Source: a virus
IMG/VR virus record: IMGVR_UViG_3300023210_003947
Coordinates: 1 to 33,432 of that record
Strand: one strand, 5' to 3'
Length of the DNA: 33,432 nt
A program made the translations under genes and the position numbers. Shown piece after piece: positions 4,786-20,935 of the stretch. Position 1 is the first letter of the stretch. Each line of letters opens with the position of its first letter. Below the pieces are notes generated by a model. It ran no database searches. It was not told the origin of the DNA and saw only the letters and a list, made by a program, of their open reading frames with translations.

Positions 4786-5292
4786 TTAGTAAAGTGCTAC
4801 ACTTGAATATGATATAATATCTGATTGTTTAAGATCATTGTATGATATTCTAAAGGTATTAAGTAATCCGTTACCGAATCCACCTTCTAATACTATTCCC
4901 ATTCCGCCCATAGTTGAGTTTGGTAATAATAATATATAATTATGTCCTGGTGAATCTTGCCAAATTTTAACTATAGTCTTAGCGTTTTTTAAGTAAGTAG
5001 ATCCTGCATTATATCCGGTATTACTAATACATTCTCCATGATATGGAGAATTAGTATCGTGTTTAAAATCGTGCTTTAGTTTCTCTGAATATTCTCGACA
5101 CTGAGAAGATAACGTGCTATCCCAAACGATTGGTGATTTTCCGCTATTAACTCTATACTTACTAATTTCTTCAATTACCAATTGCTCTAGGAACTCCATA
5201 TCTAGTGTTTTTATACGTAGAGTATCAGTTGGTTCTGTTGCGAACGTTGAAGTAGAAATAATAACTAAGATTGCGATAAGTAACTTTTTCAT
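4786..5292 (-). CDS. Secreted CAP (SCP/PR-1-like) domain protein
   Basis: The 168-residue protein has a clear Sec signal peptide (MKKLLIAILVIISTSTFA, likely cleavage after FA). A CAP-superfamily domain follows: I-x-K-Y-R near residue 43, IVWDSTLSSQCREYSEKL, the histidine followed by the HGE motif (SPYHGECISNTGY), and the signature IVKIWQDSPGHNYILL with a Gly-rich end (MGGMGIVLEGG). CAP proteins are extracytoplasmic; known activities include lipid or sterol binding and, in some members, proteolysis. Here it would act in the periplasm or outside. It is preceded by a TAGTATAATA-type promoter motif rather than the late type, suggesting expression before lysis. A role in host envelope alteration or superinfection control is possible but unproven. 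Confidence 0.85.
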   Translation of the reverse strand: MKKLLIAILVIISTSTFATEPTDTLRIKTLDMEFLEQLVIEEISKYRVNSGKSPIVWDSTLSSQCREYSEKLKHDFKHDTNSPYHGECISNTGYNAGSTYLKNAKTIVKIWQDSPGHNYILLLPNSTMGGMGIVLEGGFGNGLLNTFRISYNDLKQSDIISYSSVALY

Positions 5293-5317
5293 TTTGTTTA
5301 GTTTAGGGGTTATATAT

Positions 5318-5328
5318 TTATTATACTA
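5318..5328 (-). promoter_or_regulatory. TAGTATAATA-type promoter motif for CAP gene
   Basis: On the minus strand this reads TAGTATAATAA, about 25 bases before the CAP ATG. The same element precedes the ligase, glucosyltransferase and DUF6378-like genes. It resembles a sigma-70 -10 box (TATAAT). Confidence 0.5.
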
Positions 5329-5394
5329 CTAAATATATTAATATTAAAACAATGATGTACTAGGATCGATCTATCTACTTCTCATGAATGCGCG

Positions 5395-9523: not shown

Positions 9524-10180
9524 TTAATGTTTGTTTATTACTATAAATGCGCTTGACATCTCATCTTCTGTAATACTAAGATGTTTAATCGACCCTGCTT
9601 CTTTAGCGGATTTAAGCTCAGATGTAAATTCGTACCATTTATCTTCAGGTTCATCATTATCTGAAAAAGAATCTACATATATTGCATATATAGTATCTGT
9701 TAAATTTACAACTCCACTATGTAATGCAGTTAATAACTTAGCAAATAACCAAGATTCACCTTGGTAATATTGATTTTCTTCTGATGTTAATTCAGGATCT
9801 GAATTTATATGGTCAATCACTGGATCTAAATCACTAACCTTTTTACTTAATATAAACGACTCAATTGCATTTTTAAGTTCTGGGGTTTTATCAAAATCAT
9901 CTCCGTTAGTAATAATTGTATAGCTAATATGATCATAGTTGCGATTTACCTCTTTTAAAAAATCTAATATAGGCACCCCGTTTGTTCCATATGCATAATC
10001 ATCTAAATTATTTAATTCAGTAAGTGTACGTTTCGTATTTGGTCCTATTCCAAGTGTGTCTAATACTTCCTCGTCTCCATCATCTAAATCACTAAAATCG
10101 TATCCGCTAAGATCGATGTCATCTAACTCATCTGATTCGTTTAGTCGTTTCCATTCATTAAAGTTTTGTATCTTAATCAT
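9524..10180 (-). CDS. Putative packaged internal protein (218 aa), unknown function
   Basis: It begins MIKIQNFNEWKRLNESDE: aromatic-x-x-aromatic (F-N-E-W) followed by Leu-Asn-Glu, the leader pattern shared by many genes in the window. After the leader comes a very acidic stretch (DDIDLSGYDFSDLDDGDEEV), then a mixed domain without recognisable motifs. It is the last gene of the three-gene operon starting at 11415 and lies seven bases after the DUF192 gene. Function of the mature part is unknown. Confidence 0.65.
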   Translation of the reverse strand: MIKIQNFNEWKRLNESDELDDIDLSGYDFSDLDDGDEEVLDTLGIGPNTKRTLTELNNLDDYAYGTNGVPILDFLKEVNRNYDHISYTIITNGDDFDKTPELKNAIESFILSKKVSDLDPVIDHINSDPELTSEENQYYQGESWLFAKLLTALHSGVVNLTDTIYAIYVDSFSDNDEPEDKWYEFTSELKSAKEAGSIKHLSITEDEMSSAFIVINKH

Positions 10181-11496: not shown

Positions 11497-11832
11497 TTAT
11501 GCTTCTTCAACATCAGCCTCTTCTTGATCAGCTACTTCTTCACCTTCTTCACCTTCTTCACCTTCTTGGTCCGGCTCCTGGTCTGGCTCTAATGCTGATA
11601 ATCTTTCTTCAAGATCATCAATCATTGCCTTAAGATCGTCCATTGTTACTTCTTCTTCTTCTTCAACATCTTGATCAGAAAATTCCCCCTGATCAGAAAC
11701 TTCTTCTTGGTCAGCTTGGTCAGCCATTTCTGGATTTGCTCCTGAACTCATTCCTTCTTGGTCGTCTTGGAATTGCTCGTTTAATTTTCCTGATTTAGAT
11801 GACATAAATCCTTTAAAATCTTTTACTTTCAT
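11497..11832 (-). CDS. Acidic leader-bearing protein, prohead-core-like (111 aa)
   Basis: It starts MKVKDFKGFMSSKSGKLNEQ: F-K-G-F, then Leu-Asn-Glu. The rest is extremely acidic and low in complexity, with repeated DQ, EE and GEE units (DQEPDQEGEEGEEGEE) and one helix (MDDLKAMIDDLEERLSALE). Size and charge recall T4 gp67/gp68 and the internal peptides cut from core proteins, so a prohead core or DNA-condensation role is likely, though acidic tracts alone do not prove homology. It is a single-gene unit with the full late-type promoter motif and its own terminator. Confidence 0.7.
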   Translation of the reverse strand: MKVKDFKGFMSSKSGKLNEQFQDDQEGMSSGANPEMADQADQEEVSDQGEFSDQDVEEEEEVTMDDLKAMIDDLEERLSALEPDQEPDQEGEEGEEGEEVADQEEADVEEA

Positions 11833-12472: not shown

Positions 12473-14083
12473 TTATGCCATTAAATCAGATCCTCCCATT
12501 TTGGCAAGAACTCTATTAGCGTGATTTGCTCGTTTATTGAGAGCAGCCTCTGATCTATCATGCGGCTGTTCATATTGATTTAGAATAACATGAGTCGCTG
12601 ATTTAACATCAGTAGATTTACGTAAATTATTCAAAGCTCCCTTATGTGTAGTTTTTAATTCATGAGCTAGAAAACTATATGCAATATCATCATTTGCAGG
12701 TTGAACTGTTAAATCAACTCCAAATTTAGATTTAGCATGGTTCTTAAGTGATATCTGTCTAGAATCATGAGTCCACTGTGACCAGCTATATCCAGTCTTA
12801 CCGTCAATTACAAGCGGTTTTACTACTGATCCTGGTTTATGTTGAACTCTAGCTGGATAAAATCCACTCTCTTCCCATAAGTTTCCTGCAAAACCTGCTG
12901 CTTGTTCTTTAGTTAATGAGAAGTCTGCAATTAACTTGGTCGCAATTTGGGCTCCCTTAGTTGCTTTCTGATCCTCTGATGAATTACCCGGTAGAACATT
13001 GAATGCACCTGTACTTTTAATAGTTTTCTTAGTAGAGGGAACCGTAATAAAGTCCTTAGTTTTCTTACTTGAAATAGGTTTTCCCTGTTCAGCAAGCTTA
13101 AATAATCTAGCATATATATTTCCAATATCAGTTCCGGTAATATCATTACCATCCTCAATTATTCTGTCGTCATCCGTCTTTCTAATACTTCCTATTAAAT
13201 CTCGTCTCTTACTATATAAATCAAATTTATGTTCAGACTTGTTATATTTAGCAATCTTAGTTATCCTTTGATCTTTATATCTTATTCTATAATACTTCCT
13301 GTGTTTAATACTACTACGACTCTTAAGTTTAGATTTAGACTTAACTTTAGTTTCGGCTTTAGTTTCGGCTTCTTTCTGCTGAGCAATCGCTTCTCCATCC
13401 CATTCTTCTCTAATTGGTCCGATATACCTAAATGCAGCAGTTTTCTGAGGATTGTTTTTTTCGATATTTTTCCAAGTACTTAACTTGTAGTTCATTTCTA
13501 TTTGTCCTGTATTATCCGAGCTTGGTGGCATTCCGTTTGATGAATTCGATATTATCTTACCGTTATCAACTATGATTCCAGTATGACCGTGGCCATGACC
13601 GGGATTAGTCGCAGTTAATATAACATCACCGGGTTTAGAAGAGGTTTTCCAATCTCTAATCATTTGCCAATTCTTTTTGTCCGAGGATAAATGATCCCAT
13701 AGCGTTGCCGTTCCTAATTGAATTATTGGTTTTCCAGGTATAATTGGATATCCAGTTGCTCGATAGAACATTAATGATAGTGCTGCCACACATCCTAATC
13801 CTCCTGGCTTTGGTTCTGATTTACCTGCTTTTCTTTGTGCTGCAGTTATCGTACCGGTTGCATTTTTAATAGATCTAGTTGGAACGTTTATATTAGCATA
13901 TGCCGATTTAGTAAGATCTCCAATCGGCCCCTTCTTAGGAGATGCGAGCGGTAAGTGATCGTCTTTATTGTCTATTCCTAAGGATCCTCCAAATGTTTCT
14001 ACATCCGCAGGTACTGCCTCTTCGATGGCGTTATGTGCCATTTTGCTATTATTTAGCCAACTATCAAACGAATCTATTTCCAT
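12473..14083 (-). CDS. Two-domain peptidoglycan hydrolase (NlpC/CHAP-like plus phage lysozyme domain) with leader
   Basis: The 536-residue protein starts MEIDSFDSWLNNSKMAHNAI followed by EEAV, giving F-D-S-W and a possible Ile-Glu-Glu cut. Residues about 90-185 look like a papain-fold peptidase of the NlpC/P60 or CHAP type: Cys98 at a helix start (GGLGCVAALSLMFYRATG), the PGDVIL turn, then GHGHTGIIVDNGKIISNSS with the candidate histidine at 167. A basic, Lys/Ser/Arg-rich linker (about 236-300) follows. Residues about 388-520 match the phage tail lysozyme domain (Phage_lysozyme2, PF18013): LTKEQAAGFAGNLWEESGF with the candidate catalytic Glu405, GYSWSQWTHDSRQISL, and a repeated-helix end. It should cut both peptide and glycan bonds of the cell wall. 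The leader suggests it is carried in the virion rather than acting only as an endolysin. Confidence 0.85.
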   Translation of the reverse strand: MEIDSFDSWLNNSKMAHNAIEEAVPADVETFGGSLGIDNKDDHLPLASPKKGPIGDLTKSAYANINVPTRSIKNATGTITAAQRKAGKSEPKPGGLGCVAALSLMFYRATGYPIIPGKPIIQLGTATLWDHLSSDKKNWQMIRDWKTSSKPGDVILTATNPGHGHGHTGIIVDNGKIISNSSNGMPPSSDNTGQIEMNYKLSTWKNIEKNNPQKTAAFRYIGPIREEWDGEAIAQQKEAETKAETKVKSKSKLKSRSSIKHRKYYRIRYKDQRITKIAKYNKSEHKFDLYSKRRDLIGSIRKTDDDRIIEDGNDITGTDIGNIYARLFKLAEQGKPISSKKTKDFITVPSTKKTIKSTGAFNVLPGNSSEDQKATKGAQIATKLIADFSLTKEQAAGFAGNLWEESGFYPARVQHKPGSVVKPLVIDGKTGYSWSQWTHDSRQISLKNHAKSKFGVDLTVQPANDDIAYSFLAHELKTTHKGALNNLRKSTDVKSATHVILNQYEQPHDRSEAALNKRANHANRVLAKMGGSDLMA

Positions 14084-14085
14084 AC

Positions 14086-14099
14086 TAATATTATTTATC
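14086..14099 (-). promoter_or_regulatory. Late-type promoter motif for peptidoglycan hydrolase gene
   Basis: The minus strand reads GATAAATAATATTA, just before the ATG and overlapping the 3' end of the NUDIX gene. Confidence 0.45.
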
Positions 14100-14565
14100 T
14101 TACTCGATCTAGTATTATCAACTGTGATTTATGTATCTTAGGATACGCATCTTCGATTTTTACAAAACCTGCCCAATCTATTTCCTCTAGTTGTAATTTC
14201 TCTTTATCTATTTTATGACCTATCATTCCTATGTCAGAAGGATCGTCTATTCTCATAATGAAGTATATCATTTGGGAATCAATCGAGCCATCTTTTTTGA
14301 AACGAGGTACAGTGTGTGGCTCTGAATCTAGCTTCGACGGGTCCACCTCTATTCCGGTTTCCTCGAATACTTCGCGAATTGCTGCGTCTAACGGATCTTC
14401 TCCTACTTTGATTCCTCCTTTTGGAATTCCAAGTGCACTATGTTGCCAACTTGCGTTAGTTGGGTGAACTAGTAAAAGCTTACCGTCCCATACAAATGCG
14501 ATACCTGCTACATTTTTGGTATCCTCTGATTCATTTATAAATTTATTGAAATTCTTGACCTTCAT
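14095..14565 (-). CDS. NUDIX hydrolase with capsid-targeting-like leader
   Basis: The 156-residue enzyme has an exact NUDIX box, G-x5-E-x7-REVFEETGI, within residues about 46-75 (GGIKVGEDPLDAA then IREVFEETGIEV). The preceding strands (VAGIAFVWDGKLLLVHP) fit the fold. NUDIX enzymes hydrolyse nucleoside-diphosphate-linked compounds (NTPs, ADP-ribose, NAD, capped RNA); the substrate here is not evident. It begins MKVKNFNKFINESEDTK: F-N-K-F then Ile-Asn-Glu, an especially clear copy of the shared leader, so it may be packaged and injected. The start overlaps the bS21 gene by 23 bases, so expression is coupled to bS21 and the ATP-grasp-like gene. Confidence 0.92.
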   Translation of the reverse strand: MKVKNFNKFINESEDTKNVAGIAFVWDGKLLLVHPTNASWQHSALGIPKGGIKVGEDPLDAAIREVFEETGIEVDPSKLDSEPHTVPRFKKDGSIDSQMIYFIMRIDDPSDIGMIGHKIDKEKLQLEEIDWAGFVKIEDAYPKIHKSQLIILDRVR

Positions 14566-14737
14566 CCTTTTTTCTGTTATATACTGCTTTATTTAATTCT
14601 TCTCTTTTCTTAACTGACTTCTTCTTAAATCGTTTTCGTTCTCGAAGTTCTTGATGTACTCCTATATCCTTAAGTTTTTTACGGTACGATTTAAGAGCAT
14701 ATTCTATTTTATTTCCTTTAACCTTTACTATAATCAT
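14543..14737 (-). CDS. rpsU: Ribosomal protein bS21
   Basis: The 64-residue basic protein has the whole bS21 pattern: MIIVKVKGNKIEYALKSYRK, then a long basic helix (QELRERKRFKKKSVKKREE) and a short tail, as in cellular S21 (about 60-70 residues). bS21 sits near the anti-Shine-Dalgarno end of 16S rRNA on the small subunit. In Flavobacterium relatives it helps hide the anti-SD. A phage copy could replace the host protein and bias ribosomes to phage messages. It starts one base after the stop of the ATP-grasp-like gene (TAACATG) and overlaps the NUDIX gene, giving a tight three-gene operon under a late-type motif. Confidence 0.93.
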   Translation of the reverse strand: MIIVKVKGNKIEYALKSYRKKLKDIGVHQELRERKRFKKKSVKKREELNKAVYNRKKDEGQEFQ

Positions 14738-14738
14738 G

Positions 14739-15593
14739 TTAATTATATTTTGAATAATCTAAGGTGTGACGTGATTTTATTAACATTGAATCATATAGCT
14801 TGGTTTTGTAATATTTACTAATGCTCTCTGTTATCATTTTATTTTTAACCCAGTTAGGAAGTTTAGAATCATAGAAATCTGAGTAGGCCGCCTCGTATAC
14901 AGTTAACGCTTGATGTGGATTCAAATCTAGTTTTCTATTAACGTTATTTAAATATAACCCGCCCTTAACTGATTCAAGTAATTCAACATTATAAAAATCT
15001 AAATTGTACTTTTCGTATAATTCCTCAGATATTTTAGTTGCTTCTTTCATATGTACGAATCTATTCATGTCTACATCTAGTGGAAATTTATTTATTGATT
15101 CCACGATGCTGATAGGCTTCCCTTTAAATGATAGGATATTAAATTTAGTTTTAGGTATAACCTTTTCTCTAAACTTTTCGTATAATCCCTCAGATGCTTT
15201 AAGTTTTCCTAGTGTCTTATACTCTACTCCTTCACCTAGTTTATTATATGCTATAATTGGAAATTTTAATTTCTTAATTGTCTTTATGTCACGCGTATAT
15301 GATGGTATAAACTTAGCGCCGCTAAAGTCCTCAATTACCATATTGAAATTTGGAGCTTTATTTAAATTATATGTGAATTCTGATTCATATAGTGCGTTAG
15401 ATTTAAATGAATAATCATCTGCTACTATTACTGGAATCTTATTTAAATTCTCCTTTAGCTCGTATTGATTCTTAATGTAATTGAAGTATGGAAAGTTGAT
15501 GTTTTCATTGGTTGCGATTGCAACCTTGTTTATAAATGTATTTGCATCCTTCGAATACTGCTCGCTATATTGGTTAAAGTTCTTATATTTCAC
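14739..15593 (-). CDS. Putative ATP-grasp-like protein with possible leader
   Basis: I place the start at GTG 15593, 13 bases after a late-type motif. This gives 284 residues starting (M)KYKNFNQYSEQYSKD, with F-N-Q-Y as in the other leaders and Tyr-Ser-Glu as a possible cut. The long open frame extends further upstream but would run through the promoter. Several blocks suggest an ATP-grasp fold: KLKFPIIAYNKLGEGVEYKT (candidate ATP-binding lysine with a Gly-rich turn), SEGLYEKFREKVIPKTKFN, ILSFKGKPISIVE and VELLESVKGGLYLNNVNRK (acidic/Asn metal site). ATP-grasp enzymes ligate carboxylates to amines; RimK, for example, adds glutamates to a ribosomal protein. Its coupling to bS21 makes ribosome modification an attractive but untested idea. 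The fold call is moderate. Confidence 0.5.
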   Translation of the reverse strand: MKYKNFNQYSEQYSKDANTFINKVAIATNENINFPYFNYIKNQYELKENLNKIPVIVADDYSFKSNALYESEFTYNLNKAPNFNMVIEDFSGAKFIPSYTRDIKTIKKLKFPIIAYNKLGEGVEYKTLGKLKASEGLYEKFREKVIPKTKFNILSFKGKPISIVESINKFPLDVDMNRFVHMKEATKISEELYEKYNLDFYNVELLESVKGGLYLNNVNRKLDLNPHQALTVYEAAYSDFYDSKLPNWVKNKMITESISKYYKTKLYDSMLIKSRHTLDYSKYN

Positions 15594-15651: not shown

Positions 15652-16680
15652 ATGGTTAATTCATTTAAAACTTGGAGCTCAGTAAACGAAAGACACGGGT
15701 CTACCGGAGGTAGAGAACATATCTGGGTAAAGGGTAAAAAGATCAATATTGTGTATAAGGTTCAAAATAAGGCACAATTCATGATGAAAATTGTACATTC
15801 AGTAGTTGATCAAATCGATGACAACAAAGGAACTCTTACCTCACTAGGAGCAAGTTCAATACTTAATTACGTAAACGCATCACTTGGATTAGTTCAAACG
15901 TTCGGTAAAATGGATACAGCTTTCTTTGGTAAAAAAGTATTAGTTTATAAAATACTAAAGGACACATCTAGAACTCAGAAATATCAGTTTACAGTTACAG
16001 ACAGAACATTGATCGCAGGATTAGATCCTAATACTGAATTTATTTCAACCGCTCAATTATCGAATGCTAAGGGAGACGAGATAAAAGGGGTAATAACGGA
16101 CACGGAGGGAAAAGTAAAAACCGATGATACTGCGGAGAATCCAACCGATGCAATTAATTTAGAAACAGGTGACGGTGAAGGAACTGCAATTACTATCAGA
16201 CAGGCAGGTGATAGGTTCAGATATAAGATGAGATCAAATGAGAAATTATACTTATGTCAATTTACAGAAAACGAAGGAGCAATTGATTGTAACGTTATAT
16301 CCGGAGGTAGAAAACCAAGTGGAACAGTTTCCTGGAAAGTTAATATACCGATATGGATTACAGATGAGGATAACAGCGGAACTACAAGCACTGAACCACT
16401 ATATACTGATACTGAGATATTAGACCCAACTGACAAGAAATTCTTTACTAGAATGTTTACCGATGATGATTATTTAAATAAGATAATCAGTGAATATAAG
16501 GACAAGTATGGATCAAGCGAATTAAACGGCGAAAATCTTAAGAACATGTTATATTATAACGGAACAGAGGATAAAATATTTCCGTCTGAAGTGGAAGACG
16601 AAGGGGAAGAAACCGCAGATGCTGGAACAGTTGGAACGGCCGGAACAGTTGGAAGAACTAAGAAAATGTGGGATAGGTAA
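15652..16680 (+). CDS. Putative packaged internal protein (342 aa), unknown function
   Basis: It starts MVNSFKTWSSVNERHGS: F-K-T-W then Val-Asn-Glu, almost the same leader core as the 3374 gene. The next region is helical (QFMMKIVHSVVDQIDDNKG), then beta-rich (YQFTVTDRTLIAG, RFRYKMRSNEKLYLCQF). The C-terminus is an acidic, Gly/Thr-rich low-complexity tail (DAGTVGTAGTVGRTK). No catalytic motif is recognised. It is the first gene of a two-gene plus-strand operon driven by the divergent late-type motif. Confidence 0.7.
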   Translation: MVNSFKTWSSVNERHGSTGGREHIWVKGKKINIVYKVQNKAQFMMKIVHSVVDQIDDNKGTLTSLGASSILNYVNASLGLVQTFGKMDTAFFGKKVLVYKILKDTSRTQKYQFTVTDRTLIAGLDPNTEFISTAQLSNAKGDEIKGVITDTEGKVKTDDTAENPTDAINLETGDGEGTAITIRQAGDRFRYKMRSNEKLYLCQFTENEGAIDCNVISGGRKPSGTVSWKVNIPIWITDEDNSGTTSTEPLYTDTEILDPTDKKFFTRMFTDDDYLNKIISEYKDKYGSSELNGENLKNMLYYNGTEDKIFPSEVEDEGEETADAGTVGTAGTVGRTKKMWDR

Positions 16681-16722: not shown

Positions 16723-18270
16723 ATGCAAAGTAACGATTTATATAATAGATACGCAGATCATAGAATTAACGAGCAAGTTGCTGTTATTTCAGATGACATG
16801 AAAGAACGACTTAGGCAGTATCTTGAGAATGACTCATTCTTAGAAAAGTTAAGTGACTTATTCTTAGATTTAGATGATGGCGAAACTACAACATCAACTG
16901 AACTTCAAATATCCGGTAAGAAATTCGGAATTATGGAAAAAGATATTATTCACGTAAGAGTAGATAAGTCTGATGATAAATCACCTAAGTTTTATATGTG
17001 GGTGATGAATGAAGATCATATGTACGACGGCGTTGATTTCCAACGAGCAGCAGAATTGCTATGGAGATCAGGCCAAGGTGGAGGAGCACTAGGAGCAGTT
17101 GGAAATGCAATCGGCGCATTAGTCGGAGCAGGAGATGCAGGAGATGCAGGAACCCAAGATGACGATTTAATGGGAATAGCTGGAGCTTTATGTAAAATAG
17201 CCGGAGAAAGATCAATAGATCCAGTAGTATACTTTAACAAATTAAGCAAGACGTTTAGTGAATCTAAAGGAGAAAGCTTAGTTGAATTCCTAGAAACTGA
17301 ATATTCAGGTAGAGCAGAAGCTGCAATACTTAATATGTTTAGACAAAAAGTTGATCCAAGTTGGGAGAGAGGAACTAACCTCGGTGCAATTCTATTAGAC
17401 ATTGGAATAACTGCAGCTACATTAGGAATGGGAACATTCGCAAGCGCATCTCTTAAGGGAGTGGGAGCAGGAGCTAAACTTGTACATACAACATCTAAAC
17501 TTGGATCGGCCACGGGAATTATTAATAAACTTAGAATGGCATTTCAAGGACTTAAACCTGCAGTACAAATAGCTAGATTTCAAAAAATATTTGCAAAAGG
17601 AAAGGTTATAACATATATGAACAAGAGCAATGTCTTAGTTACGTCAACTGTTCATGGATTTAAAAACAGTGGTAAAGTAATTCAATTAATAGATAAAGGT
17701 TCAAAAACTCCATATGCAATTGATGTTGTAAATCTAGTAGCGAACGCAGGCCGTGCTGGAGGACTAGGAGCAAATTCTCTTGCTAAACTAGTTCCAACTA
17801 CTGCTGTTAAATTAGCAGCAGGAGCAGGAGCAGTAGTTGCAGATGGAGATGTAAGTGGCGATGGTAACGGACTTGAAATTGCCGGAGAAGTAATGGGATG
17901 GTACGATACAATGACTGCCGACCCAAATGCATACTTAGAGGATCTAGTAGGTAAAAGTGAAGATAATTTAGCAAATATGATATGGGAATTAAGCGAAGGT
18001 ACTGGGATATGGGGAAATACTACAAATAAAGAAGAGCTAGCAATTGCTCTTATTATTACATCACTTACTCCTGGGTCAGCTAAGAAAGTACAAACTGCAT
18101 TTGCCGATCTAGAAACTGAAAGTAGAACAATACATTCTATACTAGTAGATGAATTAGGAGGAAATCTTGAAGATATCGCCACAACATGGTGGTCAGCTTG
18201 TACTGGAGAAAATATTGGAGAACACCCAAAGATCGATCTTATGTATGGTAAACTTACGAAGAAGAAATAA
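16723..18270 (+). CDS. Putative packaged protein with Gly/Ala-rich hydrophobic segments (515 aa)
   Basis: The leader MQSNDLYNRYADHRINEQ ends in Ile-Asn-Glu. An acidic domain comes first, then Gly/Ala-rich hydrophobic stretches (GALGAVGNAIGALVGAGDAG, GAILLDIGITAATLGMGTFA, VKLAAGAGAVVADGD) that could insert into membranes. Near the C-terminus, EGTGIWGNTTNKEELAIALI faintly recalls an annexin-like GT-x-E repeat, though I would not assign that family. The arrangement resembles the 656-residue protein encoded opposite it (18319-20289), suggesting related membrane-active roles. It is the second gene of the plus-strand operon, ending at the 18292-18317 terminator. Function is unknown. Confidence 0.65.
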   Translation: MQSNDLYNRYADHRINEQVAVISDDMKERLRQYLENDSFLEKLSDLFLDLDDGETTTSTELQISGKKFGIMEKDIIHVRVDKSDDKSPKFYMWVMNEDHMYDGVDFQRAAELLWRSGQGGGALGAVGNAIGALVGAGDAGDAGTQDDDLMGIAGALCKIAGERSIDPVVYFNKLSKTFSESKGESLVEFLETEYSGRAEAAILNMFRQKVDPSWERGTNLGAILLDIGITAATLGMGTFASASLKGVGAGAKLVHTTSKLGSATGIINKLRMAFQGLKPAVQIARFQKIFAKGKVITYMNKSNVLVTSTVHGFKNSGKVIQLIDKGSKTPYAIDVVNLVANAGRAGGLGANSLAKLVPTTAVKLAAGAGAVVADGDVSGDGNGLEIAGEVMGWYDTMTADPNAYLEDLVGKSEDNLANMIWELSEGTGIWGNTTNKEELAIALIITSLTPGSAKKVQTAFADLETESRTIHSILVDELGGNLEDIATTWWSACTGENIGEHPKIDLMYGKLTKKK

Positions 18271-20510: not shown

Positions 20511-20580
20511 ATAAAGGACTTTCACCTTTCCTGATTAGCTGTAACCCACTAATCTTATTTGATCATTCAATCAAACCGTG

Positions 20581-20935
20581 TGGAGACGGAGGGACTCGAA
20601 CCCTCGTCCATTAAACATCGACAATAGATTTTATTACAGCATAGGATAATCGTTTTCTAACAATTCCAAAATAGAGAGTTCCCTTATTACTGTTCGGTTT
20701 ACTCATAACTAATCTTCAGGTTTTCAATTTCACGCGTGAGAAATAGAAATACTAACTAAACTGTTACTTCCTTTTACATCTAATCAACCTACAAGTATAC
20801 TCAGTTACATGATGTGCACTACTTACCTATTAGGCAGCCATTGCGTACTCAGCGTTGTCGGCTAAGATTGATGTAGGTCATCACCCGTTGCTGAATCTAA
20901 AGCTTCTCGAATAATGTCAAAGCCATGTCATCCCC
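20581..20935 (-). ncRNA. ssrA: Transfer-messenger RNA (tmRNA)
   Basis: Read on the minus strand, the RNA begins GGGGATGACATGGCTTTGAC and ends with a T-arm (GAGGG-TTCGAGT-CCCTC) and CGTCTCCA. The 5' GGGGATG pairs with the 3' CGTCTCC as the acceptor stem (two G-U pairs); CCA is not encoded. Bases after the 5' end pair with those before the T-arm (TTTAGATT with AATCTATT, CATTA with TAATG), forming the long tmRNA helix 2. The tag frame reads GCC GAC AAC GCT GAG TAC GCA ATG GCT GCC TAA TAG, encoding ADNAEYAMAA, a typical degradation tag ending. At about 355 nt the length is normal. It would rescue ribosomes stalled on broken mRNAs, using host SmpB. Upstream, TAGTATA lies about 30 bases before the 5' end and may be its promoter; the transcript is likely trimmed. 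Confidence 0.94.

Follow-up and report, generated by a model that had tools for sequence, protein, structure and literature searches.

A conserved gene trio of uncultivated phages places ribosomal protein bS21 between a most likely non-catalytic ATP-grasp-fold protein and a NUDIX hydrolase

Three minus-strand genes at positions 14095-15593 of a 33-kb virus record (IMG/VR record IMGVR_UViG_3300023210_003947, analysed over its full 33,432 nucleotides and called the window here) encode an ATP-grasp-like protein, then the ribosomal protein bS21, then a NUDIX hydrolase. One base separates the ATP-grasp-like stop from the bS21 start, and the bS21 and NUDIX genes overlap by 23 nt (Table 1). The trio is kept in at least six phage lineages on ten contigs (the window; L015/L018; L016/L017; L041; L044/L045; L046/L047), and its genes abut or overlap at both junctions in all six; in L044/L045 the same position is held by a divergent bS21-like protein of 64 aa that falls below the Pfam cut-off. 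A sequence-only reading of the window had described these genes, with this spacing and overlap, as one coupled unit. All three were confirmed in place, and since the arrangement recurs in five further phage lineages, it is not a matter of chance. The ATP-grasp-fold protein is most likely non-catalytic, and the trio is a candidate toolset by which the phage would exchange one ribosomal component in the infected cell. A coupling of bS21 to a non-catalytic ATP-grasp-fold protein and a NUDIX hydrolase across lineages was not found described in the literature searched; the conservation of the trio in six lineages, the promoter-like TAAATAATAAA before the block and the relatives that lack bS21 are new here.

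Table 1. Features of the gene block and associated elements, in window coordinates.
Feature	Position	Strand	Description
ATP-grasp-fold protein	14739..15593	(-)	284 aa, GTG start
Mg-ligand region, residues 204-219	14937..14984	(-)	active ATP-grasps have D...ExN; here E204, N217, N219
Phage bS21	14543..14737	(-)	64 aa, no Shine-Dalgarno sequence upstream
bS21 Tyr53	14579..14581	(-)	aligns with F. johnsoniae 7jil Tyr54; invariant in six aligned phage bS21
NUDIX hydrolase	14095..14565	(-)	156 aa, N-terminal leader MKVKNFNKFINE
Complete NUDIX motif GGIKVGEDPLDAAIREVFEETGI	14350..14418	(-)	GX5EX7REUXEEXGU
Promoter-like TAAATAATAAA	15609..15619	(-)	begins 26 nt before ATP-grasp start codon
TAAATAATAAA copies	3348, 5397, 6079, 11847, 11885, 15609, 15628, 20302, 24921, 29950		window positions

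Searching viral contigs for the ATP-grasp and NUDIX proteins, for the product of a neighbouring gene and for a C-terminal motif yielded 13 related records besides the window, all of them fragments; two scans of bacterial genome contigs yielded no relatives. The ATP-grasp-like gene is present in every lineage examined, and its GTG start is also found in L002, L006, L013, L015 and L046. Pairwise identity among the ATP-grasp relatives falls as low as 30%, so the gene order has persisted through long divergence. In L002, which lacks bS21, the ATP-grasp gene overlaps the NUDIX gene directly, while L006 and L013 have two other genes between the two, in the place of bS21. No bS21 was found anywhere on these three records, all of which are fragments, and L030/L038 ends too early for its presence to be judged. 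Because the ATP-grasp and NUDIX genes persist in these lineages, the ATP-grasp protein does not strictly need phage bS21. In a tree of the ATP-grasp sequences those from bS21-less phages group apart from the others (support of 0.888 for the separating split), which suits a single loss.

Such dispensability, together with the other genes that fill the place of bS21 in L006 and L013, would fit a reading in which bS21 sits in the late unit for strong expression only, without any functional tie to the genes beside it. Chen et al. 2022 place phage bS21 generally near structural genes (PMC9723584). This reading has to accommodate an unchanged gene order, with overlapping genes, in six divergent lineages, and a gene tree that suits one loss in the bS21-less group, and we consider it less likely than not.

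Several other candidates were set aside. The idea that bS21 was an insertion peculiar to the window was dropped when further bS21-bearing lineages turned up. Matches in Serratia phage BF and Erwinia were weak, fell on a small unassigned gene and were left unused, and the ATP-grasp gene of Cellulophaga phi14:2 belongs to a different system, lying beside gamma-glutamyl cyclotransferase and aminotransferase genes with no bS21 annotated near. Counting against the reading favoured below, bS21 adjoins no ATP-grasp gene in three phage records of more than 630 kb (LR745206, LR756502 and LR756504). The ATP-grasp-like protein of L006 carries a C-terminal extension of about 100 residues (5052-5366), rich in Lys, Arg and Gly, that runs from near KINESS.

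The late element of phage T4 is TATAAATA, and the window element TAAATAATAAA resembles it. In 7/9 lineages the ATP-grasp start is preceded by an exact copy of TAAATAATAAA, with no mismatch, at -23 to -29; none was found before bS21 or NUDIX. This supports a single transcription unit that starts before the ATP-grasp gene. The window holds 10 exact copies where 0.28 would be expected, mostly just upstream of gene starts, and TAAATAATAAA is probably a late promoter-like element. From this element and the gene neighbourhood we infer that the trio is a late operon, as the earlier reading had called it. In the same neighbourhood, a cell-wall enzyme gene follows NUDIX in the window (12473-14083), L006 (6478-7968) and L002 (9372-10856). 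The copy in the window has a match to phage tail lysozyme and a weak one to CHAP; those of L006 and L002 are partly alike, with enzyme domains that seem different. A ClpP-type protease gene is also present in this neighbourhood in L002 (1082-1813; Pfam 9e-52).

A phage tmRNA had been grouped with the trio as part of one programme for taking over translation. The tmRNA itself, at window 20578-20935, is genuine: it scores 68.6 bits against Rfam RF00023 and has the predicted tag DNAEYAMAA. The proposed connection is not supported, since a tmRNA scored over the cut-off in only 1/13 related records (G012, 73093-73476; the records are fragments), and on this evidence the tmRNA is not tied to the trio. 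Many weak matches to the tmRNA model fall in one stretch of G002 (50164-59300), which is probably a tRNA gene array.

The label of the first gene product as ATP-grasp-like was a guess when it was made, since the 284-aa protein has no sequence match in Pfam, PHROG or the PDB; PDB searches with the window protein and with a three-row profile gave chance-level matches only, such as phenol hydroxylase. An AlphaFold2 run on two sequences only gave a pLDDT of 31 and was discarded. With an alignment of 12 sequences (A11), made up of 11 members of the family and a distant ATP-grasp from L004, the model of the window protein reached a pLDDT of 87.4 and a pTM of 0.85. Foldseek against the PDB returned 328 matches at E<=0.001 and, among the matches listed, all were ATP-grasp-fold proteins. 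In VIA-align the top row was Pseudomonas RimK 7qyr (Z 12.4, 214 residues, rmsd 4.4), with LysX, PsnB and PurK inside its tie band and the RimK-RpsF complex 5zk6 also among the tied top matches. Rank 1 was not accepted as evidence of RimK membership, as it lies within the tie band of other ATP-grasps. The guess of an ATP-grasp fold was thus borne out at the level of a confident model whose best solved matches are all of this fold.

The single canonical ATP-grasp row, that of L004, could bias the predicted fold, and for this reason independent support matters. A phage relative in BFVD, A0A6J5PSK2, was modelled separately and has the same fold (37% identity, TM 0.90). Three divergent family members found the ATP-grasp of L003 (E 0.5, 0.006 and 0.7 in 2.3 billion bases of phage records), and a family profile built without L003 and L004 scored this huge-phage ATP-grasp at 62 bits, its best relative. 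Alignment of the family to L003 by hhalign gave 97.9% over 253 columns, with unrelated controls below 0.5%. Together with the model, these results support an ATP-grasp fold for the window protein. The L003 protein retains the canonical residues, and it has a Pfam R2K_2 match above the cut-off. It is encoded at 3635-4624 of L003, is the ATP-grasp of huge phage LR756500.1, and begins with MKFIKPYEEFK, which looks like the same kind of leader as that described below for NUDIX.

While the fold is predicted with confidence, the catalytic residues are not kept. The catalytic register was set by aligning the family to L003/L004, where the spacing agrees, and by predicted final strands at 200-208 and 213-219, because single-sequence hhalign comparison with E. 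coli RimK and DdlB gave a signal too weak to inform. Across 11 family members the Mg-ligand columns read EEEEEENRSGG at the Asp position, NGSGSSSKSAA at the Glu position and NNNNNNDEGSS at the Asn position, so that the Glu is absent in 11/11 and the Asp and Asn columns are not conserved. The ExR motif is gone, its positions being occupied by K/R and variable residues, the Gly-rich loop is shortened and without its Gly pattern, and the AKP lysine that contacts ATP is found only in L041 and L044. With these elements not kept in the family, canonical ligation is unlikely. The loss is specific to the ATP-grasp protein, since the NUDIX motif encoded in the same operons is complete in 8/9 lineages. 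Other positions are invariant, namely K126 (one of the R2K RAGNYA lysines, of which the strand-2 lysine is lost in most members), E143, D173, E207-S208, P226, E234 and D239, and these mark another constrained surface.

RimK, of the RimABK system, acts in ribosome modification, glutamylating bS6. The window protein shares its predicted fold and lies next to a ribosomal protein gene; it differs in lacking conserved metal ligands, Gly loop and ExR, and no rimA or rimB was seen beside its gene. The earlier suggestion of a RimK-type enzyme that modifies ribosomal proteins is therefore not upheld. An active ligase of this type, which would add amino acids to bS21, bS6 or another host protein, perhaps through a rearranged site, could still draw on the tied structural matches to RimK, including 5zk6, on the canonical residues of its distant relative L003, and on K126, E143, D173, E207 and D239, from which a new site might be formed. 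Set against Mg-ligand columns that vary freely and the loss of the other catalytic elements, we judge such activity improbable. The synapsin C domain has the ATP-grasp fold without ligase activity and still binds ATP. It appears in the VIA-align list (Z 10.7-10.9) and, with no sequence relation to the window protein, offers a precedent for an ATP-grasp with a binding or regulatory role. Among phage proteins, a close comparison is with the R2K.2 ATP-grasps (Burroughs et al. 2015, PMC4431377; PF18299), to which the best relative of the family profile belongs by its R2K_2 match. The window family differs from R2K.2 in the frequent loss of the strand-2 lysine and in the lack of an R2K Pfam match for the window, L002, L015 and L016 proteins. 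Modification of host proteins has been proposed for the phage R2K ATP-grasps (PMC4431377, PMC7824862).

The second gene of the trio is a genuine bS21, matching Pfam Ribosomal_S21 at 33.8 bits (cut-off 27) and two PDB bS21 chains, one of them F. johnsoniae 7jil. It had been called uncommon in phages, but bS21 is by far the most common of the phage-encoded ribosomal proteins (PMC9976891). In Bacteroidia the 16S tail is sequestered by bS21, bS18 and bS6 (PMC9976891), and the F. johnsoniae tyrosine that corresponds to the conserved phage residue stacks on the 16S rRNA 3' tail, according to Chen et al. (PMC9723584). The rpsU gene of Bacteroidota hosts has an exceptionally strong Shine-Dalgarno (SD) sequence, and ribosomes without bS21 use it to autoregulate production of the protein (PMC9976891). 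No SD was found before phage bS21 in the lineages examined, so its synthesis should escape the rpsU loop and follow the ATP-grasp gene instead. In the window as a whole an SD core lies upstream of 1/36 genes, where 10% of random stretches have one, and positions -3 and -6 of gene starts are enriched in A, as expected for a phage of a Bacteroidota host.

The presence of bS21 in late regions of Bacteroidetes phages and the hypothesis that it replaces the host protein have already been published by Chen et al. 2022 (PMC9723584). Their Bacteroidetes myophages resemble the window in the conserved aromatic bS21 residue, the inferred Bacteroidota hosts, the late or structural neighbourhood and the lack of SD use. 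Unlike in the window, bS21 of those phages lies between hypothetical families, on the strand opposite that of the structural genes, and is co-transcribed with an other-strand gene, fam498. The main-text sections consulted make no mention of ATP-grasp or NUDIX partners (PMC9723584).

The third product was correctly read as a leader-bearing NUDIX protein (Pfam NUDIX 5e-14), and with a complete motif it is apparently an intact hydrolase; any link to RNA is putative. Its leader belongs to a wider pattern. An [ILVM]NE motif occurs within residues 6-32 in 43/141 genes of nine loci, compared to 4.9 expected from internal stretches (maximum 12), and the full aromatic-plus-NE motif in 23 of 141 compared to 0.6. 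The NUDIX of most lineages carries it. The leader is also common to unrelated late-type proteins of the window, for example those at 11497-11832, 15652-16680, 16723-18270 and 9524-10180. The internal proteins of T4 similarly bear a short N-terminal aromatic leader with an E-containing site on unrelated late proteins; this targeting sequence is the only thing they have in common, and they are injected (PMC3012670). The present leader resembles this capsid targeting sequence, but a T4-type S77 protease was not found in six related records, all fragments.

These observations raise the possibility that NUDIX, and perhaps the ATP-grasp protein, is packed in the head by way of a T4-like leader and injected with the DNA, with bS21 alongside or carried, which would place the unit in the head-internal protein set as well. 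Chen et al. have suggested a possible encapsidation of phage bS21 (PMC9723584). However, the ATP-grasp protein has the aromatic half only (KNFNQY) and no NE site, bS21 has no leader, the expected protease was not seen, and the leader may have another role in assembly. Virion packaging is thus a serious possibility, on balance somewhat doubtful.

The explanation that we tentatively favour, with a little less than even confidence as a whole, is a late unit for bS21 replacement with a non-catalytic ATP-grasp accessory. The conserved TAAATAATAAA would start a late-type transcription unit giving three coupled proteins. Phage bS21, with its 16S-tail tyrosine kept, would most likely replace host bS21 on the 30S platform, entering Bacteroidota-type 30S subunits late in infection, where continued occlusion of the anti-Shine-Dalgarno tail would allow phage messages without an SD to be served. 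The ATP-grasp-fold protein, given that conservation of the catalytic metal site is lost, most likely acts by binding rather than ligation, as a co-produced accessory and perhaps as a RimK-like factor for docking or exchange at the bS6-bS18-bS21 platform. The NUDIX hydrolase, with its intact motif and T4-like leader, would be the third product of the unit. A more specific version strikes us as a long shot: here the ATP-grasp-fold protein would serve solely in bS21 exchange, as a catalytically silent mimic of RimK that docks on that platform, removes the host bS21 and puts the phage copy in its place.

It has been speculated that phages encode products that help bS21 exchange on the ribosome (PMC9976891), and the ATP-grasp partner is for now a concrete candidate for such a factor and nothing more. 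If the protein should prove unrelated to ribosomes, the unit would still stand as a late block, with a non-catalytic ATP-grasp protein, that is conserved among these uncultivated phages. Related phages that have ATP-grasp and NUDIX with no bS21 alongside provide a plain control. Phage bS21 has already been proposed to respecialise Bacteroidota ribosomes, and the coupled partner makes the question of its exchange testable.
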